A stretch of DNA of 64,000 nt from Amycolatopsis jejuensis (GTDB lineage: Bacteria; Actinomycetota; Actinomycetes; Mycobacteriales; Pseudonocardiaceae). Within the stretch, counting starts at the first letter, position 1; every line of letters begins with the position of its first letter. The stretch is from assembly GCF_000717335.1 (NCBI RefSeq), contig NZ_JNYZ01000003.1, forward strand, positions 62,001 through 126,000, given 5' to 3'. Made by a program: the position numbers and the translations under genes. Below, piece by piece: positions 599-51,450 of this stretch. The notes under the pieces were generated by a model, which searched no databases, was not told the DNA's origin, and saw only the letters and a program-made list of their open reading frames with translations.

Positions 599-672
599 TG
601 CCCCCGACGGGATTTGAACCCGCACTGAATCGATTTTAAGTCGACTGCCTCTGCCGGTTGGGCTACGGGGGC
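599..672 (-). tRNA. tRNA with UAA anticodon (Leu-type codon), short variable loop
   Basis: A full cloverleaf can be folded: acceptor GCCCCCG/CGGGGGC with discriminator A, D-arm with the conserved GG, anticodon stem GTCGA/TCGAT around the loop CTTAAAA, a 5-nt variable loop (TCAGT) and T-arm GCGGG-TTCAAAT-CCCGT. CCA is not encoded. The anticodon UAA reads UUA (Leu), but bacterial tRNA-Leu normally carries a long variable arm, which is absent here. The 5' end is 2 nt after the stop codon of the metallo-hydrolase gene, so it may be co-transcribed with that operon. About 250 bp without a recognisable gene follow on its 3' side before the DUF2637 gene. A decayed or repurposed tRNA used as an integration site is possible. 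Confidence 0.85.
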
Positions 673-674
673 CA

Positions 675-1460
675 TTACACCCTAGCGGCTTCCCCGGCCG
701 GGGTCGACGTGGCGGTTTCGAAGAGGGCGCTTTCCGCGATGCGGTGGTCGTGGCTCGGGATCACCTCGCACTGCAGGTCGGACACGAATTCGAACGTTTC
801 GTAGCACTCGATGAGGCTCGTGTGGATCGTCGGGGCGATGCTTTCGCGCCAGTTGGGTGCGTGCCAGTTTTCGTACACACCGATGGCGTCGCCGGCGAGC
901 AGGTAGCGGGCGGATTCCGTGGCCAGCAGGACGCCTTGCGAGCCTGGCGTGTGGCCAGGCAAGGGGACGATCGTGACACCCGGGCAGATCGCCTGCTGTC
1001 CGGTGATCGCCTCCGTCCGGTCCCACGCCGACATCCACGGGGCCTGCAGGCCGGGCAGCTTTTCGTACGCGCGGGCATGGACCGGGAGCGGGGCGATCGC
1101 GTATTCGAGTTCCCGGCGGCTTACGAGGATTCGTGCGTTGCGGAACAGGAAGTTGTTCGAGCAATGATCCCAATGCAAATGCGTGTTGACCACGTAGTCG
1201 ACGTCGTCCGGTTCAATTCCGGCCGAACGCAGGGCGGATTCCGGGGTTTCGCTGGAAGTGCGGACGAAATCGTAGGCGTGATGCTGTCGGACGTATTCCG
1301 CCGAGAGGGTACCCGTGTCGACGACGATTCGGGTTCCGGCTGTTTCGATGACGAACATGAACATGTGGATATCGATCGTTTCGTCGCTTGCCGAACCGTA
1401 GACGGCGGCGGAGAGCGGGACGTTTTTCGACCGTCCCGCCCGTAGTGCGGTCACCTTCAC
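675..1460 (-). CDS. MBL-fold metallohydrolase (N-acyl-homoserine lactonase-like)
   Basis: This 261-residue protein carries the metallo-beta-lactamase zinc motif HLHWDH at residues 94-99, a later PLPGHTPGSQG histidine, an LAGD aspartate and a C-terminal IPSHDHR histidine, the ligand set of dinuclear-zinc hydrolases. Overall length and spacing resemble AHL-lactonase-type enzymes, so ring-opening of a lactone or hydrolysis of a thioester or ester is plausible; the substrate is not known. It starts with GTG and overlaps the upstream Ldh gene by 4 bp, making it the last protein gene of the catabolic operon. No signal peptide is visible, so it should act in the cytoplasm. Confidence 0.88.
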   Translation of the reverse strand: MKVTALRAGRSKNVPLSAAVYGSASDETIDIHMFMFVIETAGTRIVVDTGTLSAEYVRQHHAYDFVRTSSETPESALRSAGIEPDDVDYVVNTHLHWDHCSNNFLFRNARILVSRRELEYAIAPLPVHARAYEKLPGLQAPWMSAWDRTEAITGQQAICPGVTIVPLPGHTPGSQGVLLATESARYLLAGDAIGVYENWHAPNWRESIAPTIHTSLIECYETFEFVSDLQCEVIPSHDHRIAESALFETATSTPAGEAARV

Positions 1461-2500
1461 GCCAGCACCTCCACGCCCAGTTCCTCGCCGACCCGGCGCA
1501 GATCGGCGACGGTGCGTTCCGGCAGCAGTACGCCGTCACGCAGGTTGCGTTCCTCGGCCAGGTCCTCGAGTTCGCCCGGGTATCGCACCGGGTCGGCGCC
1601 CTCGCGAGAACCGGACTTCAGCTCGGCTACCAGCGCATTCATCCGGTCCTCGAACTCCGCGACCGGGCTGAACGCGGCGATGTCCAAAGCCAGGTACAAA
1701 TGCCCGGACCGGCCGGGCCGTTCCGCCTGGTACGGCCCGCTCACCCCCGAGCCGAAACCGCTGCCACCGAGGACGCCGGACAGTACGTCGACCATCACCG
1801 AAATCCCGTACCCCTTGTGCCCGGCCATCGGCAGCACGGTGCCGAGCAGCGCGGTGGCCGGGTCGCGCGTCGGGGTGCCATCCGACGCAACCGCCCAGCC
1901 GTCCGGGATTTCGCTTCCTTGGTTGCGGGCGAGGTAAATCTTGCCGCGTGCGACTGCGGTATTGGCGATGTCCAGCACCATCTGCTTACCGCCGCCGATG
2001 GGTGCGGCAATCGACCACGGATTGCTGCCGACCAGTTTCCCGCGTCCACCCCATGGGGCCATCGCGGGGCTGGAATTCGTGGTCAGAATGGCAATACAAC
2101 CGCGTGGTGGGGCCATTCTGGTGAAATAAGCCGCCGTGCCGAAATGGTTGGAGTTTCGAACGGAGACAACTCCGACACCGTGTTGCGCAGCCCGGTCAAG
2201 AGCCTCCTCGGCGGCACGTGCGGTGACGACCTGACCGATGCCGTCGTGGCCATCGATCGTCGCCACCGCACCGAGGCCCGCAACGACCTCGGTCTTCGTC
2301 GAACTCTGCATGACGCCCGCTCGCAGCCGGTCGGCGTACCAGCCCACGCGGAGGACCCCGTGTGACTGGTGCCCCCACAAATCCGCCTGTACCAAGCTGT
2401 CCGCGACCAGCCGAGCGTCCTCTTCGGACACTCCACAAGCGACAAAGATGCCGGTCGCCGCGGTACGGAGCGAAGCGGCCGAAACCCGGACGTCCGCCAT
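1457..2500 (-). CDS. Ldh family (malate/L-lactate dehydrogenase type) oxidoreductase
   Basis: The 347-residue protein matches the malate/L-sulfolactate/ureidoglycolate dehydrogenase family, a NAD(P)-dependent fold unrelated to classical Rossmann lactate dehydrogenases. Diagnostic segments are WGHQSHGVLR near the N-terminus, the NSNHFGTAAYF motif and the GSNPWSIAAP segment in the middle. The family oxidises 2-hydroxy acids or reduces 2-oxo acids. The gene overlaps the ALDH stop (TAATG) upstream and the MBL hydrolase downstream by 4 bp, so the three are translationally coupled. In this operon it probably handles a hydroxy-acid intermediate released after side-chain cleavage; that role is inference. 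Confidence 0.88.
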   Translation of the reverse strand: MADVRVSAASLRTAATGIFVACGVSEEDARLVADSLVQADLWGHQSHGVLRVGWYADRLRAGVMQSSTKTEVVAGLGAVATIDGHDGIGQVVTARAAEEALDRAAQHGVGVVSVRNSNHFGTAAYFTRMAPPRGCIAILTTNSSPAMAPWGGRGKLVGSNPWSIAAPIGGGKQMVLDIANTAVARGKIYLARNQGSEIPDGWAVASDGTPTRDPATALLGTVLPMAGHKGYGISVMVDVLSGVLGGSGFGSGVSGPYQAERPGRSGHLYLALDIAAFSPVAEFEDRMNALVAELKSGSREGADPVRYPGELEDLAEERNLRDGVLLPERTVADLRRVGEELGVEVLA

Positions 2501-3936
2501 TACCTGTCTCCGGCCGGTTCGAGCAGCACAAGCCGCTCCTCGGTCATCTCGCGGACTGCGTAACGCGGACCTTCAACGCCGTAGCCGCTGTCTTTCACGC
2601 CGCCGTACGGCATGAGGTCCGCCCGGGTGCTTGAGGTCGAGTTGATCACAACGCCACCGACGCGAATACGCTGCGCAGCCGCCAACGCGCTGTCGATGTC
2701 ATGGGTGAAAATGCCTGCCTGCAAACCGAACGGAGTGTCGTTCACGGCGTCGATGGCCGCGTCGAAGTCCTCGAACGGCACCACCGAAACGACCGGTGCG
2801 AACGCTTCCTCGCACAGCAACCGCGTTCCGGACGGGACCTCGACGAGAATGGTCGGCGACATCACCGGTCCCGAACGCTTCCCGCCCGCAACAATGCGAG
2901 CGCCCTGGTCCACCGCGGCATTCACCCATTCCTCGGCCCGCTTCGCGGCTGCCTCGCTGATCATCGGGCCGATGTCGGTGGCCGGGTCTTCCGGATCGCC
3001 CACCACAAGTTTGGCCGCAGAAGCCGCCAACTCCTCCAAGAACTCGTCCAGCACGTCCGAATGCACGTAAAGCCGCTGCACCGAGGTACACACCTGACCC
3101 GATTTGCGGAATGCCCCGCGCGCACATTGCTGTGCGGCCGAGATGACATTCGCGTCGCGGCACACAATGGTCGCGGACACGTTGCCGCATTCCATTGTCG
3201 CGCGACGCAGGCCGAGCCGGGAGGAAATGCTCTTGCCGGTCGCGGTGCTGCCGGTGAACGTGACGAAGTCGACCCGCTCGTCGTCGACCAGCGCGGTACC
3301 CACCGGGTCGCCCGGCCCGAGCAGCAGGCCGATCAACCCGGCCGGCAACCCGGCGTCCAGCAGCATCCGGCACAGTGCGGCAGCCGCGATCGGCGTGAAC
3401 GGCGACGGCTTCACGATCGCCGCGTTACCTGCGGCCAGAGCTGGTCCGACCTTGTGTGCGACAGTGTTCAACGGCGAGTTGAACGGCGTGATCGCACCGA
3501 CCACCCCGACCGGGTGGCGGGTGGTGAACGCCAGCCGGTGCGCGAACCCTGGAGCGGCCTGGATCGGCACCACGGCGCCATCGATCCGCTTCGCCTCCTC
3601 GGCCGACGTCAGCATCGTCTGCACCGCGCGGCTCGTGTCACCGAGACAATCCTTGACGCTGAACCCCGATTCCCGCGCGACGCTCAACGCGAGCTCATCC
3701 CGGTTCTTCGCGATTTCGTCAGCGACCGCGCGCAGGATTTCGTAACGCTCCAATGGGTTCAGTGGCGTCAGACTTGCTTCGTGCGCCACGGTCACCGCAT
3801 TGGCCACCATTTCGGCCGTCGCGTCATAAGCGACCGCAATTGCTTCGCCGGTGAACTTGTGGTGCACCGTGCGTTCATGGTCGCTCGTGAGCCATTCACC
3901 GTTGATCAAATTCGCCACTACGGGTAGCGCCGTCAT
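2500..3936 (-). CDS. NAD(P)+-dependent aldehyde dehydrogenase
   Basis: A 478-residue ALDH superfamily enzyme. Visible motifs include the substrate/cofactor segment GAITPFNSPLN, FTGSTATGKSI, the general-base glutamate in MECGNVS (E249) and the nucleophilic cysteine in GQVCTSVQR (C283). The open frame extends further upstream, but that extension is low-quality sequence overlapping the amidase gene. The ATG at 3936 gives the family's normal N-terminus (VANLINGEWL) and an ATGA overlap with the amidase stop, so I chose it. It should oxidise an aldehyde to an acid or acyl product, possibly the aldehyde released by one of the retro-aldolase-like thiolase/DUF35 pairs in the same operon; this link is inferred. 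Confidence 0.92.
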   Translation of the reverse strand: MTALPVVANLINGEWLTSDHERTVHHKFTGEAIAVAYDATAEMVANAVTVAHEASLTPLNPLERYEILRAVADEIAKNRDELALSVARESGFSVKDCLGDTSRAVQTMLTSAEEAKRIDGAVVPIQAAPGFAHRLAFTTRHPVGVVGAITPFNSPLNTVAHKVGPALAAGNAAIVKPSPFTPIAAAALCRMLLDAGLPAGLIGLLLGPGDPVGTALVDDERVDFVTFTGSTATGKSISSRLGLRRATMECGNVSATIVCRDANVISAAQQCARGAFRKSGQVCTSVQRLYVHSDVLDEFLEELAASAAKLVVGDPEDPATDIGPMISEAAAKRAEEWVNAAVDQGARIVAGGKRSGPVMSPTILVEVPSGTRLLCEEAFAPVVSVVPFEDFDAAIDAVNDTPFGLQAGIFTHDIDSALAAAQRIRVGGVVINSTSSTRADLMPYGGVKDSGYGVEGPRYAVREMTEERLVLLEPAGDR

Positions 3937-5360
3937 CCCAGCTGTCCTCTCGTCGTTTCCCGCGTGCGCGCGGCCTCGGTGACCGGCGACCACCCGGTGT
4001 GCTTTTCGTAGGCGCGTCCCACCCGGAGTACGCGGTCGTCGTCGTTGCGGGCGCCCACAATCTGAATTCCTGCCGGAAGCCCGGCAGGCGTGACGCCGCA
4101 CGGCACGCTCAGCGCCGGTTGCCTGGTCATGTTGAACGGATAGGTATAAGGCGTCCACGACGCCCACACGGTTTCAGCCGGGTCCGGCGCATTCTGCCCC
4201 GCCGGAAACGCGACAATCGGCACCGACGGCGTGATCAGCACGTCGTATTTCTCGTGGAACTGCGCAGTCCGCAGCGCGAGATCAGCGCAGACCGCCATGG
4301 CTTCCAGATACTCGACAGCGGTGGTATCGCGGCCGCGTTCGCCGAACCCCAGTAGTGCTGGGTCTGCCCGTTCCAGTTCTTCGGATCGGAATCCCTTGAG
4401 TGACTTGGCAATCCCGGCGCACCAGAGGGTCTGAAATGCCGCGAGAGGATCGTCGAAAAACGGCTCCACCACAGTCACCTGGGCACCGAGTTCCGCGAGC
4501 ACCGCGACCGCCGCCGCCACCAGCGATTCGACCTCCGGGTCATTGCGGCCGTACCCGAGATCCGGCGAGTAACCGATCCGGAGACCGGCCACCCCCTCCT
4601 CGATCCCGTCGGTGAACGAGCCTTCCCGGCCCGGCAGTGCAGTCCAATCGCGACAGTCCGGCTGCGACAGGACGTCCAGCAGCAGCGCCGCATCCAGTAC
4701 CGACAACGTGATCGGCCCGCGATGTGAGAGATGTCCGTTGCTGCCCAATGGATACATCGGGATCAGCCCACCAGTCGGTTTGAGGCCCACCGTACCGGTG
4801 AACGCCGCCGGCACCCGCACCGAACCGCCGCCGTCCGTGCCGACCGACCAGGTGCCCATCCCCGCCGCGACCGCCGCGGACGAACCACCGCTCGACCCAC
4901 CGGGGGTCAACGCCGGATTCCACGGATTCCGAGTGATCCCGAATCGCGGTGAATCGGTGACCCCTTTCCACCCGAATTCCGGCGTCGTGGTTTTGCCGAT
5001 CACTACCGCACCCGCTTCGCGCAACCGCGCCACACTCGGCGAATCCTCGTGCCACGGCCCGTCGTCGCCGACCAGCCAGCTGCCCCGCAAGGTCGGCCAC
5101 CCGCGGGTCCGCTCGAGATCCTTGACCGACGTGGGAATTCCGTCCGCCGGACCACGCTGGGTACCGCTCGCCCACCGCTTTTCGGATTCGGCCGCCGCAA
5201 GCAACGCACCGTCGGGGTCCACCATCACGAACGCATTCAGTTCCGCGTCGTGTGCTTCGACGGCGGTAAGCGCTGCCCGGGTCGCTTCCACCGGCGACAC
5301 TTCGCGCCGCCCGTACGCCCCGGCCAGTTCCGCCGCGCTCATCCCAGCGAGATCCGCCAC
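3933..5360 (-). CDS. Amidase (amidase signature family)
   Basis: The 475-residue protein has the full amidase signature: catalytic lysine in SVKDLE (K80), the cis-serine in TPGGSSGGSS (S156) and the nucleophilic serine in GTDGGGSVR (S180). These form the Ser-cisSer-Lys triad of GatA/fatty-acid-amide-hydrolase-type enzymes. It is a stand-alone amidase rather than GatA, since no gatB or gatC is nearby. The start is GTG, it overlaps the ALDH start by 4 bp, and it lies 8 bp after the two-domain CoA-transferase. Its presence among CoA-dependent catabolic genes suggests that the imported compound contains an amide bond that must be hydrolysed. Confidence 0.92.
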   Translation of the reverse strand: MADLAGMSAAELAGAYGRREVSPVEATRAALTAVEAHDAELNAFVMVDPDGALLAAAESEKRWASGTQRGPADGIPTSVKDLERTRGWPTLRGSWLVGDDGPWHEDSPSVARLREAGAVVIGKTTTPEFGWKGVTDSPRFGITRNPWNPALTPGGSSGGSSAAVAAGMGTWSVGTDGGGSVRVPAAFTGTVGLKPTGGLIPMYPLGSNGHLSHRGPITLSVLDAALLLDVLSQPDCRDWTALPGREGSFTDGIEEGVAGLRIGYSPDLGYGRNDPEVESLVAAAVAVLAELGAQVTVVEPFFDDPLAAFQTLWCAGIAKSLKGFRSEELERADPALLGFGERGRDTTAVEYLEAMAVCADLALRTAQFHEKYDVLITPSVPIVAFPAGQNAPDPAETVWASWTPYTYPFNMTRQPALSVPCGVTPAGLPAGIQIVGARNDDDRVLRVGRAYEKHTGWSPVTEAARTRETTRGQLG

Positions 5361-5368
5361 GACGTCCT

Positions 5369-6754
5369 CTACTCGCCGAATTCGCCGAGATCGAGTTCCA
5401 GCTCGGTCAGCTCGGCAATTTCCGCTGCGGTGAAGCCCGGGGCAATGGATTCGAGCCGGAAGACGTCACCGGCCCGCCGCAGCACACACAGATCCGTGAC
5501 GACGAGGTCCACGCAGTTCCGTCCGGTCAGCGGGTATTCGCAGTTCTTGACCAGTTTCGGCCGCCCACCGGAATCGCAATGCGTCATGAGCACCATGACG
5601 TTGACCTCCCCGGCGACGAGGTCCATCGCACCGCCGATGCCGCCGCCGACCATGCTCGGCGTGCTCCAGTTCGCGAGGTTCGCCGCGCCATCGACCTCGA
5701 ACGCGCCCAGCGCAACGAAGTCGACCTTCCCACCCCGCACCATTTCGAACGACGTCACGCTCTCGAAGAACGAAGCGCCCGGCTGCAGATGTACGTACTG
5801 ACCACCTGCGTTGTAGACCTCGGGGTTGTAATCCTCCCGCGAGGCAATGGTTCCGTATCCCAGCACCCCGTTTTCGGAATGCAGGGTGATATCGCGGCCC
5901 TCGATGTAGTTCGAGATCAGCGTGGGAATCCCGAGACCGAGGTTCACATAACTGCCGTTCGGCAGGAGACCAGCGGCCGTCTCCGCCATTTGCCGACGCG
6001 TCAACGCCTGCTTCCCATGATAGGTACGAGCGCTGTCGGCACCACGGCCTTCGCGGGGCGCCGGGAAATCGTGCGGGACTTCGACGGTCTTGCGGACCAC
6101 CCGGCTCACGAAGATCCCCGGCAACCCGATCGACTCGGGGTTCAGCTCACCATCGATGATCTCGTCGACCTCGGCGATGGCAATCCGCGCCCCTTTGGCG
6201 AAAGCAGGCATGAAATTGCGTCCGACGCCTTCGAATTCGAGGTTGCCGAACCGGTCCGCGCGGGTGGCGCGAATCAGTGCGTAGTCCACCTTCAGCGCCG
6301 TTTCCAGCACGTGCTCGACGCCGTCGATCACGCGGGTTTCCTTGCCCTCCGAAACGGTGGTGCCCACCGCAGTGCGGGTGAAGAACGCCCCGATTCCGGC
6401 GCCACCGGCCCGCAGCCGCTCGACCAACGTGCCCTGCGGCACCAGTTCGACCTCGATCTCCCCGGCCAGGATTTGCTTCTCCGCCGCCGAAGTCGCTTCC
6501 CCGGCCCGCGCCGAGAACGACACGATCAGCCGGTTCACCTGACCGTTCTCGATGAGCGTGTTCGACCGGTAATCTCCGGTACCCAGCGAGTTGGCGACAA
6601 TGCACAACTGCCGCGCACCCTGTTCCCGAAGCGCGACGGTGAGACTCGTCGGGAAACTGTGTGTCATGCCGAATCCCGCGATCGAAACGCTCGCGCCGTC
6701 CGGCACGTCCGCGACGGCTGCCTGCGGTGACTCGTACACCTTGTCGATGGTCAT
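5369..6754 (-). CDS. CoA-transferase, fused alpha and beta subunits
   Basis: At 461 residues this encodes both halves of a family I CoA-transferase in one chain. The N-terminal half resembles AtoD/ScoA/GctA-type subunits (DGASVSIAGFG near residue 20), and the C-terminal half resembles AtoB/ScoB-type subunits (LLPNGSYVNLGLGIPTLISN, then the catalytic glutamate in HSENGVLGYG). It transfers CoA between acyl-CoA and a free acid, activating the substrate or an oxoacid intermediate. The longer open frame upstream lacks similarity; the chosen ATG gives the expected MTIDKVY start. It lies 16 bp downstream of a DUF35 gene and 8 bp upstream of the amidase. Confidence 0.9.
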   Translation of the reverse strand: MTIDKVYESPQAAVADVPDGASVSIAGFGMTHSFPTSLTVALREQGARQLCIVANSLGTGDYRSNTLIENGQVNRLIVSFSARAGEATSAAEKQILAGEIEVELVPQGTLVERLRAGGAGIGAFFTRTAVGTTVSEGKETRVIDGVEHVLETALKVDYALIRATRADRFGNLEFEGVGRNFMPAFAKGARIAIAEVDEIIDGELNPESIGLPGIFVSRVVRKTVEVPHDFPAPREGRGADSARTYHGKQALTRRQMAETAAGLLPNGSYVNLGLGIPTLISNYIEGRDITLHSENGVLGYGTIASREDYNPEVYNAGGQYVHLQPGASFFESVTSFEMVRGGKVDFVALGAFEVDGAANLANWSTPSMVGGGIGGAMDLVAGEVNVMVLMTHCDSGGRPKLVKNCEYPLTGRNCVDLVVTDLCVLRRAGDVFRLESIAPGFTAAEIAELTELELDLGEFGE

Positions 6755-6770
6755 GCCCCATCCACCTTTC

Positions 6771-7205
6771 TCAGTGCGGGCGATTCGCAGGACGGAAACG
6801 CGGCAGCGCGGCACCGTTTCCGGTGTCGTCGAACACCACCTCGACCGCGTCCCCGATGCCGACTTCTTCCACAGCGCAGTCGACGATGTTCGTCATCACG
6901 CGGGGTCCTTCTTCCAATTCCACATACGCGAGCACGTACGGGACCACGTTCTTCCATTCCCCGCCCGCCCGGCGCACGATGCTGTAGGAATAGACGACCC
7001 CGCGGCCGCTGAATTCCTCCCAGCGCGTGTTCGTGCTGTGGCAGAACGGGCAGATCGGCCGGGGGTACCAGATCGCCGACCCGCAGTCGCCGCAGCGCCG
7101 GCCCAGGAACCGGCCTTCCGCCGCGGCTTTCCAGAACTCCTCGGTGTCCGGATTGGACACCGGATGCGCGGTCGGCAGGGTCGGGACAGTCCGTACTTCG
7201 CTCAC
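6771..7205 (-). CDS. DUF35/OB-fold zinc-ribbon acyl-CoA-binding protein, copy A
   Basis: A 144-residue protein with a rubredoxin-like zinc ribbon (C38, C41, C52, C55 in RRCGDCG...CPFC) followed by an OB-fold of the DUF35 type (GRGVVYSYSIVRR, VPYVLAYVELEEGPRVMTN). In steroid catabolism the DUF35 domain of ChsH2 binds and activates the thiolase-like aldolase Ltp2. The gene starts with GTG overlapping the stop of the thiolase-like gene upstream (GTGA), so the two proteins are probably made as a complex. The ORF continues upstream in the same frame, but only this segment has protein character. Confidence 0.9.
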   Translation of the reverse strand: MSEVRTVPTLPTAHPVSNPDTEEFWKAAAEGRFLGRRCGDCGSAIWYPRPICPFCHSTNTRWEEFSGRGVVYSYSIVRRAGGEWKNVVPYVLAYVELEEGPRVMTNIVDCAVEEVGIGDAVEVVFDDTGNGAALPRFRPANRPH

Positions 7206-11369: not shown

Positions 11370-11399
11370 GAATTCCACCCTCACCACTCGCGGGAGCGC

Positions 11400-11819
11400 T
11401 CAGTGCGCTGTCTCGGTGCTGAACTGCAGAACGGCCCGCCCGGCCGCGCCCGTCCGGAAGACCGCGCGGACCGGCTGGTCGAGCTCCACGTCTTCCGGTG
11501 CGTCGGCCAGCACGCTGATCACCAGCGGACCTTCGGCCAGCCGCACGTAGACGAGCCGGTACGGGACCTCGTCGGCGAACGCGGCGAAGTACTTCTGGTG
11601 CATCGTGCACCACGACCAGATCGTTCCGTTTCCGCTCATGGCCTGCCACGAGGCCGAGGCGGAAAGACATTGTGGACAGACCGGCGCATCCGGAAACCGG
11701 ACGTGCCCGCAGTCACTGCACTGCTGAAGCCGTAGTTCGCCGGCCGCACAACCGTCCCAGAACGGCTTGTTCCGGGCGGTGATGTCCGGCAGCAATTTCG
11801 TATAGGCCGCGACGTCCAT
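11400..11819 (-). CDS. DUF35/OB-fold zinc-ribbon acyl-CoA-binding protein, copy B
   Basis: The second DUF35 protein of the operon has 139 residues, with zinc-ribbon cysteines C34, C37, C48 and C51 (QQCSDCG...CPQC) and an OB-fold body (GNGTIWSWCTMHQKY, VPYRLVYVRLAEGPLVIS). It is 12 bp downstream of thiolase-like copy B, mirroring the arrangement of copy A. The pairing suggests two independent thiolase/DUF35 complexes acting on different intermediates of the same pathway. The proteins are clearly diverged from each other outside the ribbon, so this is not a recent duplication. Confidence 0.9.
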   Translation of the reverse strand: MDVAAYTKLLPDITARNKPFWDGCAAGELRLQQCSDCGHVRFPDAPVCPQCLSASASWQAMSGNGTIWSWCTMHQKYFAAFADEVPYRLVYVRLAEGPLVISVLADAPEDVELDQPVRAVFRTGAAGRAVLQFSTETAH

Positions 11820-11831
11820 CGCCCCGCCTTC

Positions 11832-12962
11832 CTAGTCTGCGGTGAAAATATGCGAGGTCACGATCGGCGAAATGCAGATGTACTGCACCGTCCGGCAGTT
11901 TTCGACCTGCCGTTCGCCGCCCTCGCCACGCAGCTGCCGCACCGCTTCCACGTGCAGCGCGAAGCCCTGCATGTAACTCTCGCTGGTGTGCCCGCCCGAG
12001 GTGTTCAACGGACGTTCGCCACCGAGCTCGATCCGGCCGTCCCGCACCCATTCCCACGATTCGCCGCGGGGTGCGTGCCCGAAACCCTCCAGCGAGAAGA
12101 GAATCGTCGGCAGGAAGTTGTCGTACACCTGCAAGCAGTCGATCTGCTCGGGGCCGATACCGGATCTCTGGTACAGCTCCCCGGCGACCGCCGCACTCGT
12201 CGAGTAGTAGAAATCGGGGCTGATGTAACTGCGGCTCAGCTCCGCCCGTCCCGCTGTGCCGGCCACTCGCACCGGTTTCTTGCGCATCCCACGGGCCCGG
12301 TCCAGCGATGTCACGATGAACGCGACCGCACCGTCGTTGATGATGCAGTAATCGAGTTTCCGCAACGGCTCGGCGATGTACCGCGACGCCAGGTACTCGT
12401 TCTCGTCGATTTCCTTGCCGAACACCGCAATCGGATTGCGCGCGCCATTGGCCCGGTTGTTGATCGCCAACGGTGCCAGCGCATTCTCCGGCGCGCCGTA
12501 CCTCGTGCGATACCGCTGGTACATCATGGATACATACGCGCCGGTGGACGTCATCCCGTACATGGCGTCGTACGCTCCGGCCGGATCAGCGTCCCCGCCA
12601 CCGTATTTCACCCCGGCGGAGCGGCCATTTGTCGCGTACACACAGGCAACCGTGTTCGCGACGCCCGACTGCACCAGCGCAATCGCTTCCTGCAACGCGA
12701 TCCCGCTCATCCGGCCGGTACCTTCGAGGTCGTGCACAAATCCGGGACCGGTAAGCCCGGCCACCTCGCCGAACCGGCCGTACTTCAGGTTGATGCACAG
12801 CAATCCGTCGATGTCCTGCTGTGTTGCTCCGCAATCTTCGAGCGCATCGCGAAATGCATCCACGGCGAGCTCGTATAAATCGTTGGGGTTGTCTTTGTCG
12901 GCATACAATCGCCGGAAATCCGACGATCCGACGCCGACGATTGCCACCTCTTTGTTGGCCAC
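11832..12962 (-). CDS. Thiolase-like (SCP-x/Ltp2-type) protein, copy B
   Basis: A 376-residue thiolase-fold protein starting at GTG 12962, preceded by GAGGGTGAG. The loop that would hold the catalytic cysteine reads DLEGTGRMSGIAL (residues 79-91), with no cysteine, and the C-terminal loop is NTSGGHTSESYMQG. As with copy A, a Claisen thiolase reaction is unlikely, and a retro-aldolase or substrate-binding role with the neighbouring DUF35 protein is more plausible. It is the first enzyme gene of the catabolic operon, 46 bp after the GntR regulator. The frame stays open upstream but only through the end of gntR. Confidence 0.87.
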   Translation of the reverse strand: MANKEVAIVGVGSSDFRRLYADKDNPNDLYELAVDAFRDALEDCGATQQDIDGLLCINLKYGRFGEVAGLTGPGFVHDLEGTGRMSGIALQEAIALVQSGVANTVACVYATNGRSAGVKYGGGDADPAGAYDAMYGMTSTGAYVSMMYQRYRTRYGAPENALAPLAINNRANGARNPIAVFGKEIDENEYLASRYIAEPLRKLDYCIINDGAVAFIVTSLDRARGMRKKPVRVAGTAGRAELSRSYISPDFYYSTSAAVAGELYQRSGIGPEQIDCLQVYDNFLPTILFSLEGFGHAPRGESWEWVRDGRIELGGERPLNTSGGHTSESYMQGFALHVEAVRQLRGEGGERQVENCRTVQYICISPIVTSHIFTAD

Positions 12963-13008
12963 CGTGATCTCACCCTCGTATTCGTGCCGGCGTCCTGCGC
13001 CGGCGTCT

Positions 13009-13683
13009 TCACGGGTGTTTCTTCTCCAGGATTTCCACGGCCTCCAGCGCTGCCTTGGCCGCAGCGCGGACGTGCCGGTGTGCTGCCTCGGCGGCCCGCT
13101 CGGGCGAGCGTTCCCGGATTGCCTCGGCAAGTTGCAGGTATTCCTGCACGGACGATTCGAGCCGGCCCGGAATGGTCACCGAAAGGCTTCGCAACGCGTG
13201 GATGCGCGTGTGCAACGGCCCGAGCATCGATTTCAGCAGCGCATTGCGAGCACCATCGACGAGCAGCTCGTCGAATTCGTATATCGCCCGCAGCCGCTCT
13301 TCACCGGTCGCCTTCGGCTGCACCTTTTCCACCAGCTCGGCGACTTCGGCATCCGTCGCCCGCCGCACGAACAGTTCCGCCGCGGCCGGCTCGAGCGCGT
13401 CACGCACTTCGTAGATTTCGCGTACCTCAGTGCTGCCGAGCGTGGCGACCTGCACGCCGCGGCTCGGCGACGGCTCCACGAGACCCAGGGTCTGCAGGTG
13501 CCGCATCGCTTCCCGCACGGAGGTGCGGCTGACGCCGGTGAGTTCGACGAGCTCGCGCTCGGTGAGCTTGCGTCCCGGAGGGAGGAGCCCCGTGGCGATC
13601 GCGTCGCGGATCCGCCGGACCACCATCTCCGGCACGGATTCGGTCGGTCGGTCGATCAACAGGTCCAGCTTCGACTCGGTCAC
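13009..13683 (-). CDS. GntR-family transcriptional regulator (FadR/FCD subfamily)
   Basis: The 224-residue protein has an N-terminal winged helix (residues 15-80: LTERELVELTGVSRTSVREA and LQTLGLVEPSPSRGVQV) and an all-helical FCD ligand domain (about 90-215) with the metal-binding-type residues in EIYEVRDALE and later histidines (HTRIHAL, AAHRHVRAA). FCD regulators usually repress until an organic acid or acyl-CoA binds. It starts with GTG after a GAGGA ribosome site. It lies between the importer genes and the catabolic genes on the same strand, so it most likely controls both. A dyad sits just upstream of it. Confidence 0.92.
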   Translation of the reverse strand: MTESKLDLLIDRPTESVPEMVVRRIRDAIATGLLPPGRKLTERELVELTGVSRTSVREAMRHLQTLGLVEPSPSRGVQVATLGSTEVREIYEVRDALEPAAAELFVRRATDAEVAELVEKVQPKATGEERLRAIYEFDELLVDGARNALLKSMLGPLHTRIHALRSLSVTIPGRLESSVQEYLQLAEAIRERSPERAAEAAHRHVRAAAKAALEAVEILEKKHP

Positions 13684-13698
13684 GGTAGTTCCTCACTT

Positions 13699-13731
13699 TT
13701 GTCTGACGTACTACATCGTACGTGCGTCAGA
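13699..13731. promoter_or_regulatory. Candidate GntR operator upstream of gntR
   Basis: A 7-bp inverted repeat TCTGACG/CGTCAGA (13702-13708 and 13725-13731, 16-bp spacer) sits 18-48 bp upstream of the gntR start. Its left half is embedded in TTTTGTCTGACGT, close to the TNGTNNNACNA-type core recognised by FadR-subfamily regulators. A related TTTGTCTGATG sequence occurs upstream of the importer's binding-protein gene. Autoregulation is the inferred role. Confidence 0.5.
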
Positions 13732-13755
13732 TGATCGGGGTCAAGGTGCTACAGG

Positions 13756-14799
13756 TCATACCTCACCAGGCAAAACGTGCCCTGGAGCGGCACTCACAGT
13801 CTGCAGATGACACGCGACCTCCCCACCACCCGGTACCTCAGTGTGCTCGGGCATGCGCTGACGGCACACGTCCATGACAAACCGGCACCGCGTCTGGAAC
13901 GGACACCCCACCGGCGGGTTCGCCGGATCCGGCAAATCGCCCTCGAGCACGATCCGCTCCGTTTTCCGCCGCGGATCCGGAATCGCCGACAGCAACGCCT
14001 GCGTATACGGATGCGCGGGCGCCGAATAGACCCGCTCCACCGGTCCGGTTTCCACGATCCGGCCGAGGTACATCACCGCGACCCGATGCGAGATGTGCCG
14101 GACGATGGCCAGGTCGTGCGCAATGAACAAATACGTCAGCCCGAATTCCGCCCGCAGCCGCTCCAGCAAGTTGATCACCTGGTTCTGCGTGGACACGTCC
14201 AAAGCGGACACTGCCTCGTCACACACGATGAACCGCGGGTTCAGGGCGATGGCCCGGGCAATGGCCAGCCGCTGCCGCTGTCCGCCGGAGAATTCGTACG
14301 GATACCGATCGCCATAGCTCGTGCGGAGACCGACCAGTTCGATGAGCTCGTCGACCCGGCTGCGCGCGGCTTTCGCCGACAGTTTCTCGTGCACCATCAG
14401 CGGTTCCGCGAGGCTGGCGGCCACTGTGGACGACGGGTCGAGCGACGAATACGGGTCCTGGAACACCATCTGCATGCTCCGCCGGGCTTTGCGCAGGCCC
14501 GCCCCGCGCAGGCGGGTGACGTCGTGCCCGGCCACCGAAACCGACCCGCTCGCGGCCGGCACCAGCTTGAGCAGCGCGCGGCCGGTGGTCGACTTCCCCG
14601 ATCCGGATTCGCCGACCAGTCCGAACGTCTCACCGCGGTCGATGTGGAACGAGACGTCGCTGACCGCGCGCACCTGCCGCGCCGGCTTGAGCGGGCTCTT
14701 CTTGCGGAACACCACGCTGAGCCCGTGGACGTCGACGAGCGGCCCTGGCTCCGGCGTACCGGCCGGGAGCAGCTCGGCGCTGGACTTCGTGACACTCAT
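13756..14799 (-). CDS. Peptide/nickel ABC transporter ATPase (DppF/OppF type)
   Basis: A 347-residue ATPase with Walker [10 protein letters not shown], signature SGGQRQR, Walker B ICD-type segment (FIVCDEAVSALD) and the C-terminal oligopeptide/dipeptide extension containing the cysteine pattern CPFQTRCRFVMDVC, typical of this family and sometimes linked to a cluster-binding site. The ATG at 14799 overlaps the upstream ATPase stop (ATGA). The longer in-frame region upstream is a shadow of that neighbour. With the next four genes it forms a complete five-component importer. Confidence 0.93.
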   Translation of the reverse strand: MSVTKSSAELLPAGTPEPGPLVDVHGLSVVFRKKSPLKPARQVRAVSDVSFHIDRGETFGLVGESGSGKSTTGRALLKLVPAASGSVSVAGHDVTRLRGAGLRKARRSMQMVFQDPYSSLDPSSTVAASLAEPLMVHEKLSAKAARSRVDELIELVGLRTSYGDRYPYEFSGGQRQRLAIARAIALNPRFIVCDEAVSALDVSTQNQVINLLERLRAEFGLTYLFIAHDLAIVRHISHRVAVMYLGRIVETGPVERVYSAPAHPYTQALLSAIPDPRRKTERIVLEGDLPDPANPPVGCPFQTRCRFVMDVCRQRMPEHTEVPGGGEVACHLQTVSAAPGHVLPGEV

Positions 14800-15788
14800 G
14801 GGGACACCACCAACCGCAGCTCCTCGGTTCGGCAACAGCGGCTGCTGCGGCCGTCTTCGATGATCCGGAGGGACGGCGCGCTGGCCACGCATTTGTCGCT
14901 GGCGTACCCGCAGCGCGGCCCGAACCGGCACCCCTCCGGCATCCGCCACGGCTCCGGCGTCCGCCCGGGAATCACCGGCAGTTCCTTGCCGCGCACCCCC
15001 AGCTGCGGCATCGCATTCAGCAATCCCGCCGTGTACGGGTGTTTCGGCACGTTGTACAAATCCAGCGCCGCCGCGGTCTCGACCACCTCCCCCGCATACA
15101 TCACCACCACCCGGTCGGCGAGTTCGACGACGAGCCCGAGATCGTGCGTGATGAACAGGATTCCGCAGCCCGTTTCGTCCCGCAGCCGGGCCAGCAAGGC
15201 AACAATCTGTGCCTGCACCGTCACATCGAGTGCGGTCGCGGGTTCGTCGGCAATCAGCAACCGTGGTTCGCACGCCAGCGCCATCGCGATCATGGCCCGT
15301 TGCCGCATTCCGCCGGAGAATTCGTGCGGATAGTCCTTGACCCGGTTTCCCGCATCCGGGACCCCGACGAGGTCGAGCATTTCCGCCGCCCTGGCAAAAG
15401 CCGCCCGGCGCGAACCGCCCTTGTGCCGCCGGTAGACCTCGGCAATCTGGTCGCCGATCGTGAACGCCGGGTTCAGGCTGGTCATCGGTTCCTGGAAGAT
15501 CATCGAGATCTCGTTGCCGCGGATGTCGCGCAACTCCCGTGGCGGCAGGCCGACCAGGTCACGGCCTTGATACCAGACGTGTCCTTCCGGCGTTCGCGTG
15601 TACGACTCCGGCAGCAACCGCAGTACCGAAAGGCTGGTGACGCTCTTGCCCGAACCGGATTCCCCGACCAGGCCGACGATTTCGCCCGGCCCGACGTCGA
15701 ACGACACTCCATTCACGACAGTCGTCCAGCCGCGATCGGTCAGGAAGTCCACGTGCAGATCGTCGATCCGGAGTAGTTCCTCGGTCAT
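14796..15788 (-). CDS. Peptide/nickel ABC transporter ATPase (DppD/OppD type)
   Basis: The 330-residue partner ATPase has Walker [13 protein letters not shown], signature SGGMRQRAM, Walker B LLIADEPATALD and a C-terminal CRFGPRCGYASDKC cluster-like motif. It overlaps both the permease gene upstream and the DppF-type gene downstream by 4 bp. DppD/DppF heterodimers energise import of peptides, nickel chelates, opines or other amides, so the substrate class cannot be fixed by family alone. The nearby amidase and CoA enzymes point to a carboxylate or amide ligand. Confidence 0.93.
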   Translation of the reverse strand: MTEELLRIDDLHVDFLTDRGWTTVVNGVSFDVGPGEIVGLVGESGSGKSVTSLSVLRLLPESYTRTPEGHVWYQGRDLVGLPPRELRDIRGNEISMIFQEPMTSLNPAFTIGDQIAEVYRRHKGGSRRAAFARAAEMLDLVGVPDAGNRVKDYPHEFSGGMRQRAMIAMALACEPRLLIADEPATALDVTVQAQIVALLARLRDETGCGILFITHDLGLVVELADRVVVMYAGEVVETAAALDLYNVPKHPYTAGLLNAMPQLGVRGKELPVIPGRTPEPWRMPEGCRFGPRCGYASDKCVASAPSLRIIEDGRSSRCCRTEELRLVVSP

Positions 15789-16669
15789 GACGCCTTCCTC
15801 GTTTCGCGGCCGAATGCGTCACGCAGGCCGTCGCCCACGAGGTTGAAACACAGCGTGGCAATGGCAATCGCGATCCCGGGATACACGGCGAGCGCCGGAT
15901 TCGTGCGCATGTCCTGGAAAGCCTGCCCGAGCATGCTGCCCCAGCTTGCCGTCGGCGGAAGCGCGCCGAGACCCAGCAGGCTCACCGTGACCTCGGCCAG
16001 CAAGGCGGACGCCAGCAGGAACGACAGCTGGATCAGCACCGTCGGCAGGATGTTCGGCAGCACTCGTTTACGCAGAATGGTGAGATGCGGCGTGCCGATA
16101 CTCGTGGACGCTTCGATGTACACCTCGCGCCGGACACCCATTGCGCTGCCCCGCACCACGCGATACATCCGCGGCGCGTACACGATTCCGAGCGACACCA
16201 TTGCGGTGATGAGGCCGGGCCCGGTGGCCGCGATGATCGCAATGGTGAGCACGATCGCGGGAAAGGACATCAAGATGTCGGCCGCGCGGTCCAGTACCCA
16301 ATCCACCGCACCGCCGAAATAGCCGCCGAGCAAACCGAGCGGGAGACCGATTCCGGTCGCGATGGCAACGGCAAGAGCCGCCGCGGCAAGCGAAACCCGG
16401 CCGCCGTGCATGAGGCGGCTCAACGTGTCGCGGCCGAGCATGTCGGTGCCGAGCCAATGCTGCGGGGTGGGCCCGGAAACGCGATTGGCGATGTCGATCT
16501 GCGCGGGACCGTATGGCGCCAGCCACGGGGACGCCATTGTCACCACGAGAATCACCAGCAGCAGCACCGCGCCGATCACGGCCGATTTGTTGCCGAGGAA
16601 ACGGCGGAGCAGCGCCCGCGCACGGGGAACCGGTGGGCTGTCTTGTTCTTCCGTGACCGTTCCAGTCAT
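15785..16669 (-). CDS. Peptide/nickel ABC transporter permease (DppC type)
   Basis: A 294-residue inner-membrane permease: N-terminal cytoplasmic lead, a first membrane span (AVIGAVLLLVILVVTMASPWL), the GTDMLGRDTLSR motif typical of DppC/OppC and five further hydrophobic segments, with the EAA-like loop around EASTSIGTPHLTILRKRVLPN. I chose the ATG at 16669, which gives an ATGA overlap with the upstream permease; the preceding in-frame stretch is a shadow of dppB. It forms the translocation pore together with the DppB-type protein. Confidence 0.93.
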   Translation of the reverse strand: MTGTVTEEQDSPPVPRARALLRRFLGNKSAVIGAVLLLVILVVTMASPWLAPYGPAQIDIANRVSGPTPQHWLGTDMLGRDTLSRLMHGGRVSLAAAALAVAIATGIGLPLGLLGGYFGGAVDWVLDRAADILMSFPAIVLTIAIIAATGPGLITAMVSLGIVYAPRMYRVVRGSAMGVRREVYIEASTSIGTPHLTILRKRVLPNILPTVLIQLSFLLASALLAEVTVSLLGLGALPPTASWGSMLGQAFQDMRTNPALAVYPGIAIAIATLCFNLVGDGLRDAFGRETRKAS

Positions 16670-17610
16670 GACACTGTGACCTTCGGGTTGAAGTAGCGGT
16701 ACGACACGTCGACCGCCAGGTTGATCAACATGATCAGGACCGCGGTGATCAGCAGAATTCCTTGTACCATCGGGAAATCTCGCGAGAACACGGAGAAGTA
16801 GGCCAGTTTTCCGACGCCCGGCACCGCGAACAGCTGCTCGATCACCACGGTGGCCCCGATCAACCGGTTGGCCTCCACCCCGAATGCGGTGACCACCGGT
16901 ACCGCCGCATTCTTGAGCACGTGCTTCACCACGACTCGCCGGGGATACAGGCCTTTCGCCCAGGCAGTGCGGATGTAGTCCTCCTGCATCACCGCCGTCA
17001 CCGACGCCCGCGTCTGCCGGGCGACCACCGCCGCAGGCACGATCGCGAGCGAGATCGCCGGGAGGATCAGGTGCCACAGCCAACCGGCCGGGCTTTCGGA
17101 AAACGGCACGTAACCGACGGCGGGAAACACCCGTAGCTGAATGGCGAAAATGAGCACCAGCATCATGCCGACCCAGAAGTACGGCAGCGACATCAGCGCA
17201 CTCGCCGTGACCGTGGACAGCCGGTCGACCCAGGTACCCGGGTGCAGACCGGCGGCGAGCCCGAGGGTGAGCCCGAGCACCGCGGCGACCACGAGGGTGA
17301 GCAGCACCAGCGAAAGCGTGACCGGGAATCCCTCGACCACCGCCGACCAGACACTTTGGCCGTCCACAAAGGAATGTCCGAGGTCACCGTGCAGTGCGCC
17401 GGTGAGCCAGTTCCAGTACTGGACGAGAAACGGCTTGTCCAGTCCGAGCTCCACGCGGATGGCGTGGATTTTCTCCGGCGTCGGATTGCTTCCGGCGAGC
17501 GCGACCTCCGGGCCGCCGGGCACCAACGCGATGAGACTGTAGATCAGGAAGCTGACGATGAGCAGGAGCGGCACCATCGCCAGTAGCCGGACGCACAGCA
17601 ACCGCAGCAC
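16666..17610 (-). CDS. Peptide/nickel ABC transporter permease (DppB type)
   Basis: The 314-residue permease begins MLRLLCVRLLAMVPLLLIVS, the standard DppB N-terminus, with ALVPGGPEVA and LGLDKPFLVQYWNW following. The EAA loop is DYIRTAWAKGLYPRRVVVKHVLKN (shown here by its key residues A and G at the loop centre). The start is GTG. A strong intercistronic hairpin separates it from the upstream binding-protein gene, which would let the lipoprotein be made in excess over the membrane components. Confidence 0.92.
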   Translation of the reverse strand: MLRLLCVRLLAMVPLLLIVSFLIYSLIALVPGGPEVALAGSNPTPEKIHAIRVELGLDKPFLVQYWNWLTGALHGDLGHSFVDGQSVWSAVVEGFPVTLSLVLLTLVVAAVLGLTLGLAAGLHPGTWVDRLSTVTASALMSLPYFWVGMMLVLIFAIQLRVFPAVGYVPFSESPAGWLWHLILPAISLAIVPAAVVARQTRASVTAVMQEDYIRTAWAKGLYPRRVVVKHVLKNAAVPVVTAFGVEANRLIGATVVIEQLFAVPGVGKLAYFSVFSRDFPMVQGILLITAVLIMLINLAVDVSYRYFNPKVTVS

Positions 17611-17631
17611 GCCGAACCTCCGTTCATTCTC

Positions 17632-17663
17632 GTGCGGGAGCCTGGCTGGCCAGGCTCCCGCAC
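17632..17663 (-). promoter_or_regulatory. Intercistronic stem-loop between binding-protein and permease genes
   Basis: Perfect 14-bp arms (17632-17645 and 17650-17663, starting GTGCGGGAGCCTGG) close a 4-nt CTGG loop. No U-tract follows, so it is more likely an RNA-stability or attenuation element than a full terminator. It sits 7 bp after the binding-protein stop and 21 bp before the permease start. Confidence 0.7.
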
Positions 17664-17670
17664 TGCCGGG

Positions 17671-19251
17671 TCACTTCCTGATCGCGATACCGCGGAACTG
17701 GCGCGACCCGTCGACGTACACCTCCATGCCCATCACTTTCTTGTTCATGGCCAAGGGCGTGTTGAGGTGGCACAAGGTAATGGGCGCGGCCGCGTCGTCA
17801 TGAGCCGCACGGAAGAGCTGCTGGTAGATCTCGGCGCGGCTGTCGCGGCTTTCCGCGCCGCGCGCCTTGGCATCGAGTTCGGTGATCTTCGGATTCGAGT
17901 ACCCGCCCGGATTGCTGAATCCATCCGGCAGCAGATACGACGCGACCTGAATGCTCGGGTCGGCATCTGCCTTTTGCTGCACCATGATCGCGTCCACCGA
18001 CTTCGTGACCGAGAATCCCTCGATCAGTTTCGGCAGCTCGACCGGGCGGATGGTCATCTTGATGCCGACCTCCTGGAGGTTGGCCTGGATGAGCTCGGCA
18101 ACCCGCTGGTACGACTCGAGGTTGTCGGTCTGCAGCTCGAAGCTGAACCCGTCGGGCAGACCGGCGGCCTTGAGCAGTTCCCGCGCTTTCGCCGGGTCGT
18201 AGGGATACGCGTCGGCGGTGAGCTTCGGGTCGGCGGCGTAATAGGACGACGGGAACATCTGCACGCCCGGTTCGCAGAACCCGCTCTGCAAATCATTCAC
18301 CGCACTGCGGTTGATGGCGTAATTCAGCGCCTCCCGCACTTCCTTTTTCGCGAACGGCCCCCGCTTCACGTTCAAGGCGATCGTGAAACTCGCCAGGCTC
18401 GCTTTCTGGCACACGGCAAGCCCGGCGTCCTTGGCCGGCTGGTACATGCTCGAACGGAGGAACGTGGAATCGGACTGGCCGGTGATCGTGGCGTTGAGCC
18501 GCGCATTGTCGTTGCTGGAGATCAAGAAATCCATCTTCGCGACGTGGACCGCCTTCGGGTCCCAATAACCGGGTACCGGCGTGTATTCGACCTTGGTGTT
18601 CGGCTCGTACGCGGTGACCTTGAAGGCACCCGACCCACCGGTCGGCATCCGCGCCTGCCCGGGATCGTCGAACACCTTGGGGCTCATCATCATCCCGGCC
18701 GAACTGGCGAGAATCCCGATGAGCGGCGCGGCACCGGTCTTGGTGGTGATCCGCACGGTGGCCGGGTCGACGACGTCGATTCCGCTGATATCACTCAGCG
18801 GCTGCTGGTTGAAGCTCTTCGCGGCGCGATGCCGGTCGAGGTTCGCCTTGACCGACGCGGCGTCGAACGGCGTGCCGTCGTGGTACTTCCAGTTGTCGAT
18901 CAAGTGCAGCGTAAGGCTTTTCCCGCCGTCACCGATCTCCCACTTCTTGGCGAGCATCGCCTGCGGATCACCGGCGGCGTCGATGCGGGTGAGCGTGTCG
19001 TACACCGGGTACAGGTACATCCAGCTGTTGCTGGTGGTGATCTTGTCCGGGTCGAAACTCGTGTTGGCGACGCTGTACATCCAGGTGAACGTGGCGTTCT
19101 TGTCGATCGCCGCCTCGTCGACGGGCGCACACGCCACGTCCGCCGCCTGTTTGGCCGCGGCCGCACCGCTCGGAGCACCTCCTCCGCCACCGCACGCGGT
19201 CGTGATGGTCAGGAGAGTGGCGGCAGCCGCAACGCTGAGCTGTTTCCGCAT
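17671..19251 (-). CDS. ABC transporter substrate-binding lipoprotein (family 5, DppA/OppA type)
   Basis: The 526-residue protein begins with a lipoprotein signal (MRKQLSVAAAATLLTITTAC, lipid cysteine at 20) followed by a glycine-rich linker. The body is a family 5 solute-binding protein, with WKYHDGTPFDAASVKANLDR and the region around REALNYAINRSAV that are conserved in peptide/nickel/opine binders. The ATG at 19251 has a GGAGGA ribosome site; the frame remains open for 60 codons upstream without signal-peptide character. It captures the ligand outside the membrane for the downstream permeases and heads the whole minus-strand block. Confidence 0.93.
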   Translation of the reverse strand: MRKQLSVAAAATLLTITTACGGGGGAPSGAAAAKQAADVACAPVDEAAIDKNATFTWMYSVANTSFDPDKITTSNSWMYLYPVYDTLTRIDAAGDPQAMLAKKWEIGDGGKSLTLHLIDNWKYHDGTPFDAASVKANLDRHRAAKSFNQQPLSDISGIDVVDPATVRITTKTGAAPLIGILASSAGMMMSPKVFDDPGQARMPTGGSGAFKVTAYEPNTKVEYTPVPGYWDPKAVHVAKMDFLISSNDNARLNATITGQSDSTFLRSSMYQPAKDAGLAVCQKASLASFTIALNVKRGPFAKKEVREALNYAINRSAVNDLQSGFCEPGVQMFPSSYYAADPKLTADAYPYDPAKARELLKAAGLPDGFSFELQTDNLESYQRVAELIQANLQEVGIKMTIRPVELPKLIEGFSVTKSVDAIMVQQKADADPSIQVASYLLPDGFSNPGGYSNPKITELDAKARGAESRDSRAEIYQQLFRAAHDDAAAPITLCHLNTPLAMNKKVMGMEVYVDGSRQFRGIAIRK

Positions 19252-19402
19252 CCAGGGTCCTCCGAACAGAAAAGTGCAACGGGGAAGGGGGTGACGTGTT
19301 CCTCCGGGTGGAGCGGTGACCGGTTTCCGGAAGGGACGGGACTGAGCAGCACGCAGGAATTCGAGACCCGCGCGGCTTCCGCGGGGTGACCGTGGCAGCA
19401 AG

Positions 19403-19853: not shown

Positions 19854-19866
19854 ACGGAAAAACGGG

Positions 19867-51444: not shown

Positions 51445-51450
51445 CGATAT

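Follow-up and report, generated by a model that had tools for sequence, protein, structure and literature searches.

What might the 17 co-oriented genes at positions 675-19251 (minus strand) of a 64-kb stretch of Amycolatopsis jejuensis DNA take up and degrade, and by what chemistry? The stretch (contig NZ_JNYZ01000003.1; hereafter "the window") supplied all coordinates given here. A preliminary description, made from the same DNA, had placed the genes at these positions and had proposed uptake followed by CoA transfer, hydration, retro-aldol cleavage and aldehyde oxidation. The analysis supported these steps, and the interpretation as a whole in part. The genes are best read as a self-contained, horizontally acquired uptake-and-degradation island that would run those four reactions, a reading that was assigned a probability of roughly 0.6; gene content, conserved order, insertion site, patterns of catalytic residues and a common element in the promoter regions are observed, and from these we infer every reaction, the order, the binding of the regulator and the substrate class. 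The locus can be described as a rare, transferable catabolic island, and its class of mechanism can be stated with fair confidence. Its genes, all on the minus strand, comprise a five-part importer, a GntR/FCD regulator and 11 enzymes or enzyme partners:

17671-19251, minus strand: SBP, the importer's solute-binding protein (SBP_bac_5; PF00496, E 1.4e-67)
16666-17610, minus strand: OppB-type permease (PF00528/PF19300; top NCBIfam model Opp2B, below cutoff)
15785-16669, minus strand: OppC-type permease (PF00528/PF12911)
14796-15788, minus strand: ABC_D, DppD/OppD-type ATPase (PF00005 and PF08352)
13756-14799, minus strand: ABC_F, DppF/OppF-type ATPase (PF00005 and PF08352)
13009-13683, minus strand: GntR regulator with an FCD ligand domain (PF00392 and PF07729)
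11832-12962, minus strand: ThiB, thiolase fold, predicted Ltp2-type retro-aldolase (Y280-D-N-F283, Y330, Gly83)
11400-11819, minus strand: DUF35b, zinc-ribbon/OB partner of ThiB (PF12172 and PF01796; CSDC...CPQC)
10569-11369, minus strand: ECH, crotonase-family hydratase (PF00378; presumed catalytic E139, Thr119 at the first-glutamate position)
8374-10572, minus strand: CaiBB, fused class III CoA-transferase of 732 amino acids (PF02515 in two stretches)
7202-8377, minus strand: ThiA, thiolase fold, predicted retro-aldolase (YDSF, without the nucleophilic cysteine)
6771-7205, minus strand: DUF35a, zinc-ribbon/OB partner of ThiA (PF12172 and PF01796; CGDC...CPFC)
5369-6754, minus strand: CoAT, fused alpha-beta class I 3-oxoacid-type CoA-transferase (pcaI and pcaJ families; SENG glutamate E294)
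3933-5360, minus strand: amidase-signature hydrolase (PF01425; NF004815 at 665.5 bits against a cutoff of 506)
2500-3936, minus strand: ALDH, aldehyde dehydrogenase, predicted to be non-acylating (PF00171; E249, C283)
1457-2500, minus strand: Ldh_2-family 2-hydroxyacid dehydrogenase (PF02615, E 1.3e-116)
675-1460, minus strand: MBL, metallo-beta-lactamase-fold hydrolase, lactonase-like (PF00753; HLHWDH)

All 17 proteins had a Pfam match. Judged by domain matches, the importer is a full Opp/Nik set (one SBP_bac_5 protein, two permeases and two ATPases with oligo_HPY), and the regulator, in which both the GntR helix-turn-helix and the FCD domain were matched, belongs to the FCD subfamily. Overlaps of 1-7 nt were found at nine of the 16 junctions between genes and gaps of 8-72 nt at the other seven, with the start codons chosen for that count, a small correction to the earlier description of the genes as mostly joined by overlaps of 1-8 bp. 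That no AMP-forming ligase is present was borne out: among the 17 proteins, Pfam and NCBIfam family matches included neither such a ligase nor an acyl-CoA dehydrogenase, a 3-hydroxyacyl-CoA dehydrogenase or a short-chain dehydrogenase.

The retro-aldol step was examined through the residues of ThiB and ThiA. According to PMC12329534, thiolases have a catalytic cysteine pair; the catalytic residues of Ltp2 are Tyr344 and the tyrosine of a YDHF motif, Tyr294; and Sal has a YDCY motif and a glycine replacing the nucleophilic cysteine. In ThiB, the residues Y280-D-N-F283 and Y330 were invariant in 45 of 45 aligned sequences. Y280 and Y330 align with Y294 and Y344 of Ltp2, both pairs being 50 residues apart. 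The second catalytic residue is Tyr344 in Ltp2 but Cys304 in Sal, and Y330 of ThiB has the Ltp2 form. Gly83, likewise invariant, aligns with the nucleophilic cysteine of the thiolase 7yvy and is glycine as in Sal. In ThiA, Y282-D-S-F285, H333 and T81 were invariant (32/32 sequences), and Thr81 aligns with the nucleophilic cysteine of 7yvy; H333 occupies the second-residue place and YDSF has serine rather than cysteine, so ThiA keeps one of the two Ltp2 tyrosines. Where ThiA and ThiB have YDxF, both BbsB and 7yvy have HDAF. An ordinary thiolase, with a nucleophilic cysteine and HDxF, was rejected on these residues, as ThiA and ThiB have neither.

The top Foldseek match of the ThiB model (pLDDT 84.8) was Ltp2 (6ok1, TM 0.87); in VIA-align, Ltp2 tied with an archaeal thiolase as a match, a ranking that does not distinguish aldolases from thiolases. 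The ThiA model (pLDDT 76.2) matched 4u4e, a putative thiolase, best, followed by Ltp2 and Sal. DUF35a and DUF35b each have two CxxC motifs (a zinc ribbon) and are encoded adjacent to their thiolase-fold protein; in DUF35b, one of the four cysteines varies among 25 sequences. The prediction that ThiB and ThiA are retro-aldolases rather than thiolases is fairly supported at the level of residues (YDxF, the lost cysteine and, in ThiB, both Ltp2 tyrosines). Aldolases may likewise be present among the proteins that carry a thiolase or acetyl-CoA acetyltransferase annotation and are encoded next to an OB-fold gene. The steroid side-chain aldolases Ltp2-ChsH2 and Sal-Shy share with the island a thiolase fold, a DUF35 part and the YDxF tyrosine of ThiA and ThiB; the second tyrosine of Ltp2 is also in ThiB. 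They differ in that their hydratase partner is of the MaoC type, whereas the island has a crotonase; in the island, DUF35 is a separate protein and activation is by CoA-transferase. Identity between the predicted aldolases of the island and Ltp2 or Sal was about 25-32% in structural alignments.

The "tandem CaiB" of the preliminary description proved to be a single fused polypeptide of 732 amino acids rather than separate units. Its top solved relative was benzylsuccinate CoA-transferase (BbsEF; 9fn0_B), with 4ed9 nearly tied. Domain 2 scored 155.8 bits against chain B of BbsEF and 76.5 against chain A; domain 1 scored 45.9 bits against chain A and 28.0 against chain B, with three other chains above both. 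D518, the likely covalent aspartate in the C-terminal half, was invariant in 37 sequences. This assignment is based on alignment, relative to the residues that we take to be the covalent aspartates of 9fn0_B and 4ed9, and is two columns off against YfdE. The N-terminal half has GGEQ at the aspartate position, aligned near DNQ of 9fn0_A. CaiBB consists of two unlike CaiB parts, one with a likely covalent aspartate, as in BbsEF-type class III transferases.

The SENG motif of CoAT, with what is presumably the glutamate of class I CoA-transferases, was invariant in 18 sequences. For ECH, the top NCBIfam match was p-hydroxycinnamoyl-CoA hydratase/lyase (below cutoff), and T119 and E139, at what we assume to be the glutamate positions of crotonase hydratases, were invariant in 29 sequences. 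The top NCBIfam match of ALDH was lactaldehyde dehydrogenase, also below cutoff; E249 and C283 were invariant in 14 sequences, and the glutamate is taken by us to mark non-acylating enzymes. This glutamate and that of the CoAT SENG motif fit the conversion of an aldehyde to an acid and re-esterification of the latter. In the MBL hydrolase, the HLHWDH motif was invariant in 14 sequences, and the AiiA and 4-pyridoxolactonase models matched far below their cutoffs.

The proposed sequence of events, of which the chemistry class is fairly supported, would be as follows. The Opp/Nik-type importer would take up a polar compound, with the GntR/FCD regulator governing importer and enzymes through one operator sequence at two promoters. 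The amidase probably releases a carboxylic acid, to which the BbsEF-like fused CaiBB would transfer CoA from another thioester; with CoA drawn in this way, no ATP-dependent ligase would be needed. ECH would hydrate the alpha,beta double bond, and ThiB with DUF35b would split the resulting beta-hydroxyacyl-CoA by retro-aldol cleavage, yielding an acyl-CoA together with an aldehyde or ketone. ALDH would oxidize the aldehyde to the free acid, CoAT would re-esterify that acid, and ThiA with DUF35a would carry out another retro-aldol cleavage. A mono- or dicarboxylic acid that is alpha-substituted and alpha,beta-unsaturated is the most likely substrate; an enoic acid would explain the missing acyl-CoA dehydrogenase. 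More tentatively, the island may represent a mobile form of "retro-aldol beta-oxidation" that needs neither ligase nor dehydrogenase. In it, alpha-substituted unsaturated acids would be activated by CoA transfer only, hydrated and then cut in two successive steps, each by its own thiolase-fold aldolase/DUF35 pair, and the released acyl-CoA would serve as the next CoA donor.

Relatives of the island were taken from a scan of genome contigs; the best 80 of 173 relatives were kept, and the main work was done on the first 40 (L023-L062). The same gene order was found in 11 Actinomadura type I loci, with all 17 genes in seven of them and ECH alone missing in four (L027, L028, L031 and L032). In Spongiactinospora, two loci carried all 17 genes and a third ended at a contig edge after 10. 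Two Pseudonocardia loci had 14 genes, with the importer at the opposite end; ALDH, Ldh_2 and MBL were not present in the 22-kb stretch of either cluster. Because the order is kept in three further genera, the 17 genes are a non-random unit. SBP was 61-80% identical to its orthologues in the syntenic clusters, and the GntR regulator was 85-89% identical in the 11 Actinomadura loci. In a tree built from 11 concatenated proteins and rooted arbitrarily, the window fell between the Actinomadura group and a Spongiactinospora-Pseudonocardia group. The substrate is apparently met by several soil actinomycetes.

The core comprises the importer, GntR, ThiB, DUF35b, ECH, CaiBB, ThiA, DUF35a, CoAT and the amidase. 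The three last genes (the lactonase-like MBL, Ldh_2 and ALDH) seem to be accessory, given their absence from the 22 kb of both Pseudonocardia clusters, so the lactone-bearing compound that had been suggested as an entry substrate need not be the entry; an amide- or lactone-bearing substrate is nevertheless possible. In the Actinomadura soli type II cluster, ThiB, DUF35b and ECH are jointly missing and CaiBB is retained, which would fit a role of CaiBB in setting the substrate specificity. Clusters lacking ECH (L027, L028, L031, L032, L041, L043 and L058) were distributed near-complementarily across Actinomadura. Among the loci examined, in eight Actinomadura genomes with both type I and type II clusters and the ECH site covered, ECH was present in exactly one cluster in seven, in both in one and in neither in none; a ninth genome, whose type II cluster ends at a contig edge, was left uncounted. 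These genomes are related, so the counts are suggestive only; the pattern fits a single hydratase that serves both clusters and two activation routes.

In L039, about 1.4 kb separates GntR (about 5.5 kb) from ThiB (about 7.6 kb), more than in the other type I clusters. Eight Actinomadura type II loci (L038:8269-9057 and seven others) encode a protein family of about 260 amino acids, whose gene precedes an Amidohydro_2 gene directly upstream of CaiBB; for the 262-amino-acid protein of these clusters, neither Pfam at E 1e-5 nor NCBIfam at 1e-20 gave a match.

Whether importer and enzymes are co-regulated was assessed from the DNA upstream of SBP and GntR, where one short element recurs:

13698-13706, minus strand: putative operator TCAGACAAA upstream of the GntR and enzyme genes
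19410-19418, minus strand: putative operator TCAGACAAA preceding the importer genes

At both sites, TCAGACAAA lies 8 nt after a -10-like box. A promoter-like TTGACC-18-TACGAT (13744-13715) stands beside the 13698 site, with one such promoter found against 0.8 expected, and a TATGTT box (19432-19427) lies 8 nt from the 19410 site. Across the 64 kb, the element occurred only at these two places, before GntR and SBP (expected 0.18; two were reached in 1 of 100 shuffles); it had been picked after inspection of the upstream regions. In ten of the 11 Actinomadura type I loci, the roughly 22 kb contained exactly two copies, at the equivalent two positions, and in the eleventh, L031, one copy was seen, the contig beginning 71 bp before SBP. 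It was found twice in L057 and once each in L035, L036 and L039. A longer form of the SBP-side site had no second exact match in the genome and matched three places with two mismatches, compared to two for a reversed control; a complete palindromic operator, TTTGTCNGACAAA, was not significant. The shared element suggests that importer and enzymes are co-regulated, as had been supposed, with support that falls short of proof. Its presence at both promoters leads to the prediction of two transcription units under one regulator, presumably GntR. This compact set, with its regulator, putative operator and solute-binding protein, offers a handle for finding the substrate.

The origin of the island was considered from its borders:

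598-672, minus strand: tRNA-Leu(UAA), left border of the insertion
19867-21276, minus strand: NDH-2-like gene, right border (a host gene)

An orthologue of the NDH-2-like gene was found in all 60 genomes of the genus that were searched, that of A. jejuensis included. The 30 best NDH-2-like loci were fetched, 29 of them from other genomes. In 26 of these 29, tRNA-Leu(UAA) lay about 85-690 bp from the 3' end of the NDH-2-like gene (within 150 bp in 15); in the remaining three, no tRNA-Leu(UAA) was found within the stretch available. The corresponding distance in the window is 19.2 kb, of which about 19.1 kb is extra. By eye, against the flanks of ten relatives, the junctions were placed near 688 and 19,804; if the former placement is right, the last codons and stop of the lactonase-like gene derive from the recipient flank. 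No CaiBB orthologue was found in 79 other genomes of the genus at E 1e-150, with at most 13 candidates scored per genome, and the best similarity to CaiBB among relatives was 38-41%. Across the order, none was found in 396 genomes, a weak result in that just two candidates were scored per genome. The G+C content of the island is slightly lower (0.657 vs 0.683), as is that at third codon positions (0.807 for the 17 island genes vs 0.874 for 37 predicted genes). The island was apparently acquired horizontally as one unit and is apparently specific to this genome within its genus. Classical integration at a tRNA 3' end was rejected: the insertion is on the 5' side of tRNA-Leu, and there is no integrase family among the 17 proteins.

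The spacer between the NDH-2-like gene and tRNA-Leu(UAA) (window 598-19866) varies among congeners and reaches 19 kb in the window, so that this site may tolerate insertions. Window 21280-22068 holds a gene of the uracil-DNA-glycosylase superfamily, which the family 4 and UdgX models match below cutoff.

Two narrower readings keep the retro-aldol chemistry and differ in the substrate. Certain related clusters carry genes for CYP125/124-like cytochromes P450, short-chain dehydrogenases/reductases (SDR) and ALDH, or for PrpF, pointing to branched or unsaturated acids; others carry an Amidohydro_2 gene, or a flavoprotein resembling Baeyer-Villiger monooxygenases with an esterase and an AMP-ligase. 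It is possible, if doubtful, that the substrate is a dicarboxylate, such as an alkyl- or aryl-itaconate-like acid, with succinyl-CoA as donor and possibly as retro-aldol product, in a shortened bbs-type pathway. BbsEF is the top solved relative of CaiBB, although that kinship is distant, and succinate-glutarate and mesaconate CoA-transferase models match CaiBB, all below cutoff. PrpF, a member of a family of aconitate-type isomerases, is encoded directly downstream of CaiBB in 7 of the 80 loci, all within the 40 closest, and a MatC dicarboxylate carrier adjoins one core cluster; however, MatC was seen in that 1 of 80 loci only, and the island has neither PrpF nor a dicarboxylate carrier. The bbs pathway of anaerobic toluene degradation (BbsEF, BbsH, BbsAB) resembles the island in its two-part class III transferase, hydratase and thiolase/DUF35 pair. 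It differs in its acyl-CoA dehydrogenase (BbsG) and dehydrogenase pair (BbsCD), which have no equivalent among the 17 proteins, in the HDAF of BbsB against YDxF, and in that BbsEF is a heterodimer and CaiBB one fused chain. We hold with similar reserve that 2-methyl-2-enoic acids from omega-oxidised terpenoid tails are degraded with release of propionyl-CoA. Members of one P450 family are encoded close to CaiBB homologues in Cupriavidus (two loci), Nocardia (two) and Rhizobium (one), the Cupriavidus member best matches CYP125/CYP124 structures, SDR and ALDH genes stand beside the P450 in several of these loci, and steroid side chains and ibuprofen offer an analogy. Yet the island itself has no P450, the P450 loci lack relatives of ThiA, CoAT and the amidase in the stretch examined, and an importer of the Opp type points to a polar substrate, possibly a conjugated one.

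Other chemistries fare worse. The thiolase/DUF35 pairs could instead form bonds in biosynthesis or detoxification, through aldol condensation or a C-acylation like that of PhlACB, and PhlC-PhlB, itself such a pair, was present among the structure matches. This is unlikely: PhlC is a much poorer match than Ltp2 by sequence and a somewhat poorer one by fold, no KAS III partner is among the 17 proteins, and the unit also holds an importer, hydrolases and dehydrogenases. Conventional thiolytic beta-oxidation, which the family names (thiolase, acetyl-CoA acetyltransferase) would imply, is very unlikely given the missing nucleophilic cysteine, the YDxF in place of HDxF and the lack of the two dehydrogenase families that act on acyl-CoA and 3-hydroxyacyl-CoA. 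Least probable of all is an island for degrading gamma-butyrolactone or acyl-homoserine lactone signals; the MBL hydrolase resembles AiiA-type lactonases and an amidase is present, but MBL is one of the accessory genes, its scores fall far short of the lactonase cutoffs, and 17 genes with an importer exceed the needs of quenching. Degradation of vitamin B6, pantothenate or acyl-homoserine lactone was also dropped, key genes of these pathways being lacking.

The retro-aldol reading was compared with ibuprofen degradation. In PMC9195938, disruption of IpfD abolishes growth on ibuprofen, and the protein is assigned to propionyl-CoA release. IpfD of Rhizorhabdus wittichii MPO218 (plasmid pIBU218), identified here through its neighbours as an unlabelled protein beside OB-fold and dioxygenase genes, is 34-35% identical to both ThiA and ThiB, has YDAF and a DUF35 partner, and carries a tyrosine aligned with Y330 of ThiB. 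In the ipf pathway, the substrate is produced by a CoA ligase and a ring-hydroxylating dioxygenase encoded on pIBU218, neither of which is among the 17 island proteins. The thiolase-fold aldolases of known substrate met here act on steroid side chains and ibuprofen; the island suggests a wider, portable use. Its parts belong to known families, and their combination was not found described in the literature searched, few of the papers listed having been opened; PMC11321319, PMC10818641 and PMC3720670 were also drawn on.

Plasmid pIBU218 carries, at 50938-54556 (L133:3537-7155), a further quartet of CaiB, ECH, OB-fold and lipid-transfer-protein genes, four gene types in common with the island. 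The last protein has YDHF and AYIHG like Ltp2 and is 35% identical to ThiB. The quartet differs from the island in having a single CaiB and no adjoining importer. Neither "CaiB" nor "enoyl-CoA" occurs in the main text of PMC9195938, and no substrate was indicated by the plasmid relatives H48 and H19. The quartet adjoins IS6100.

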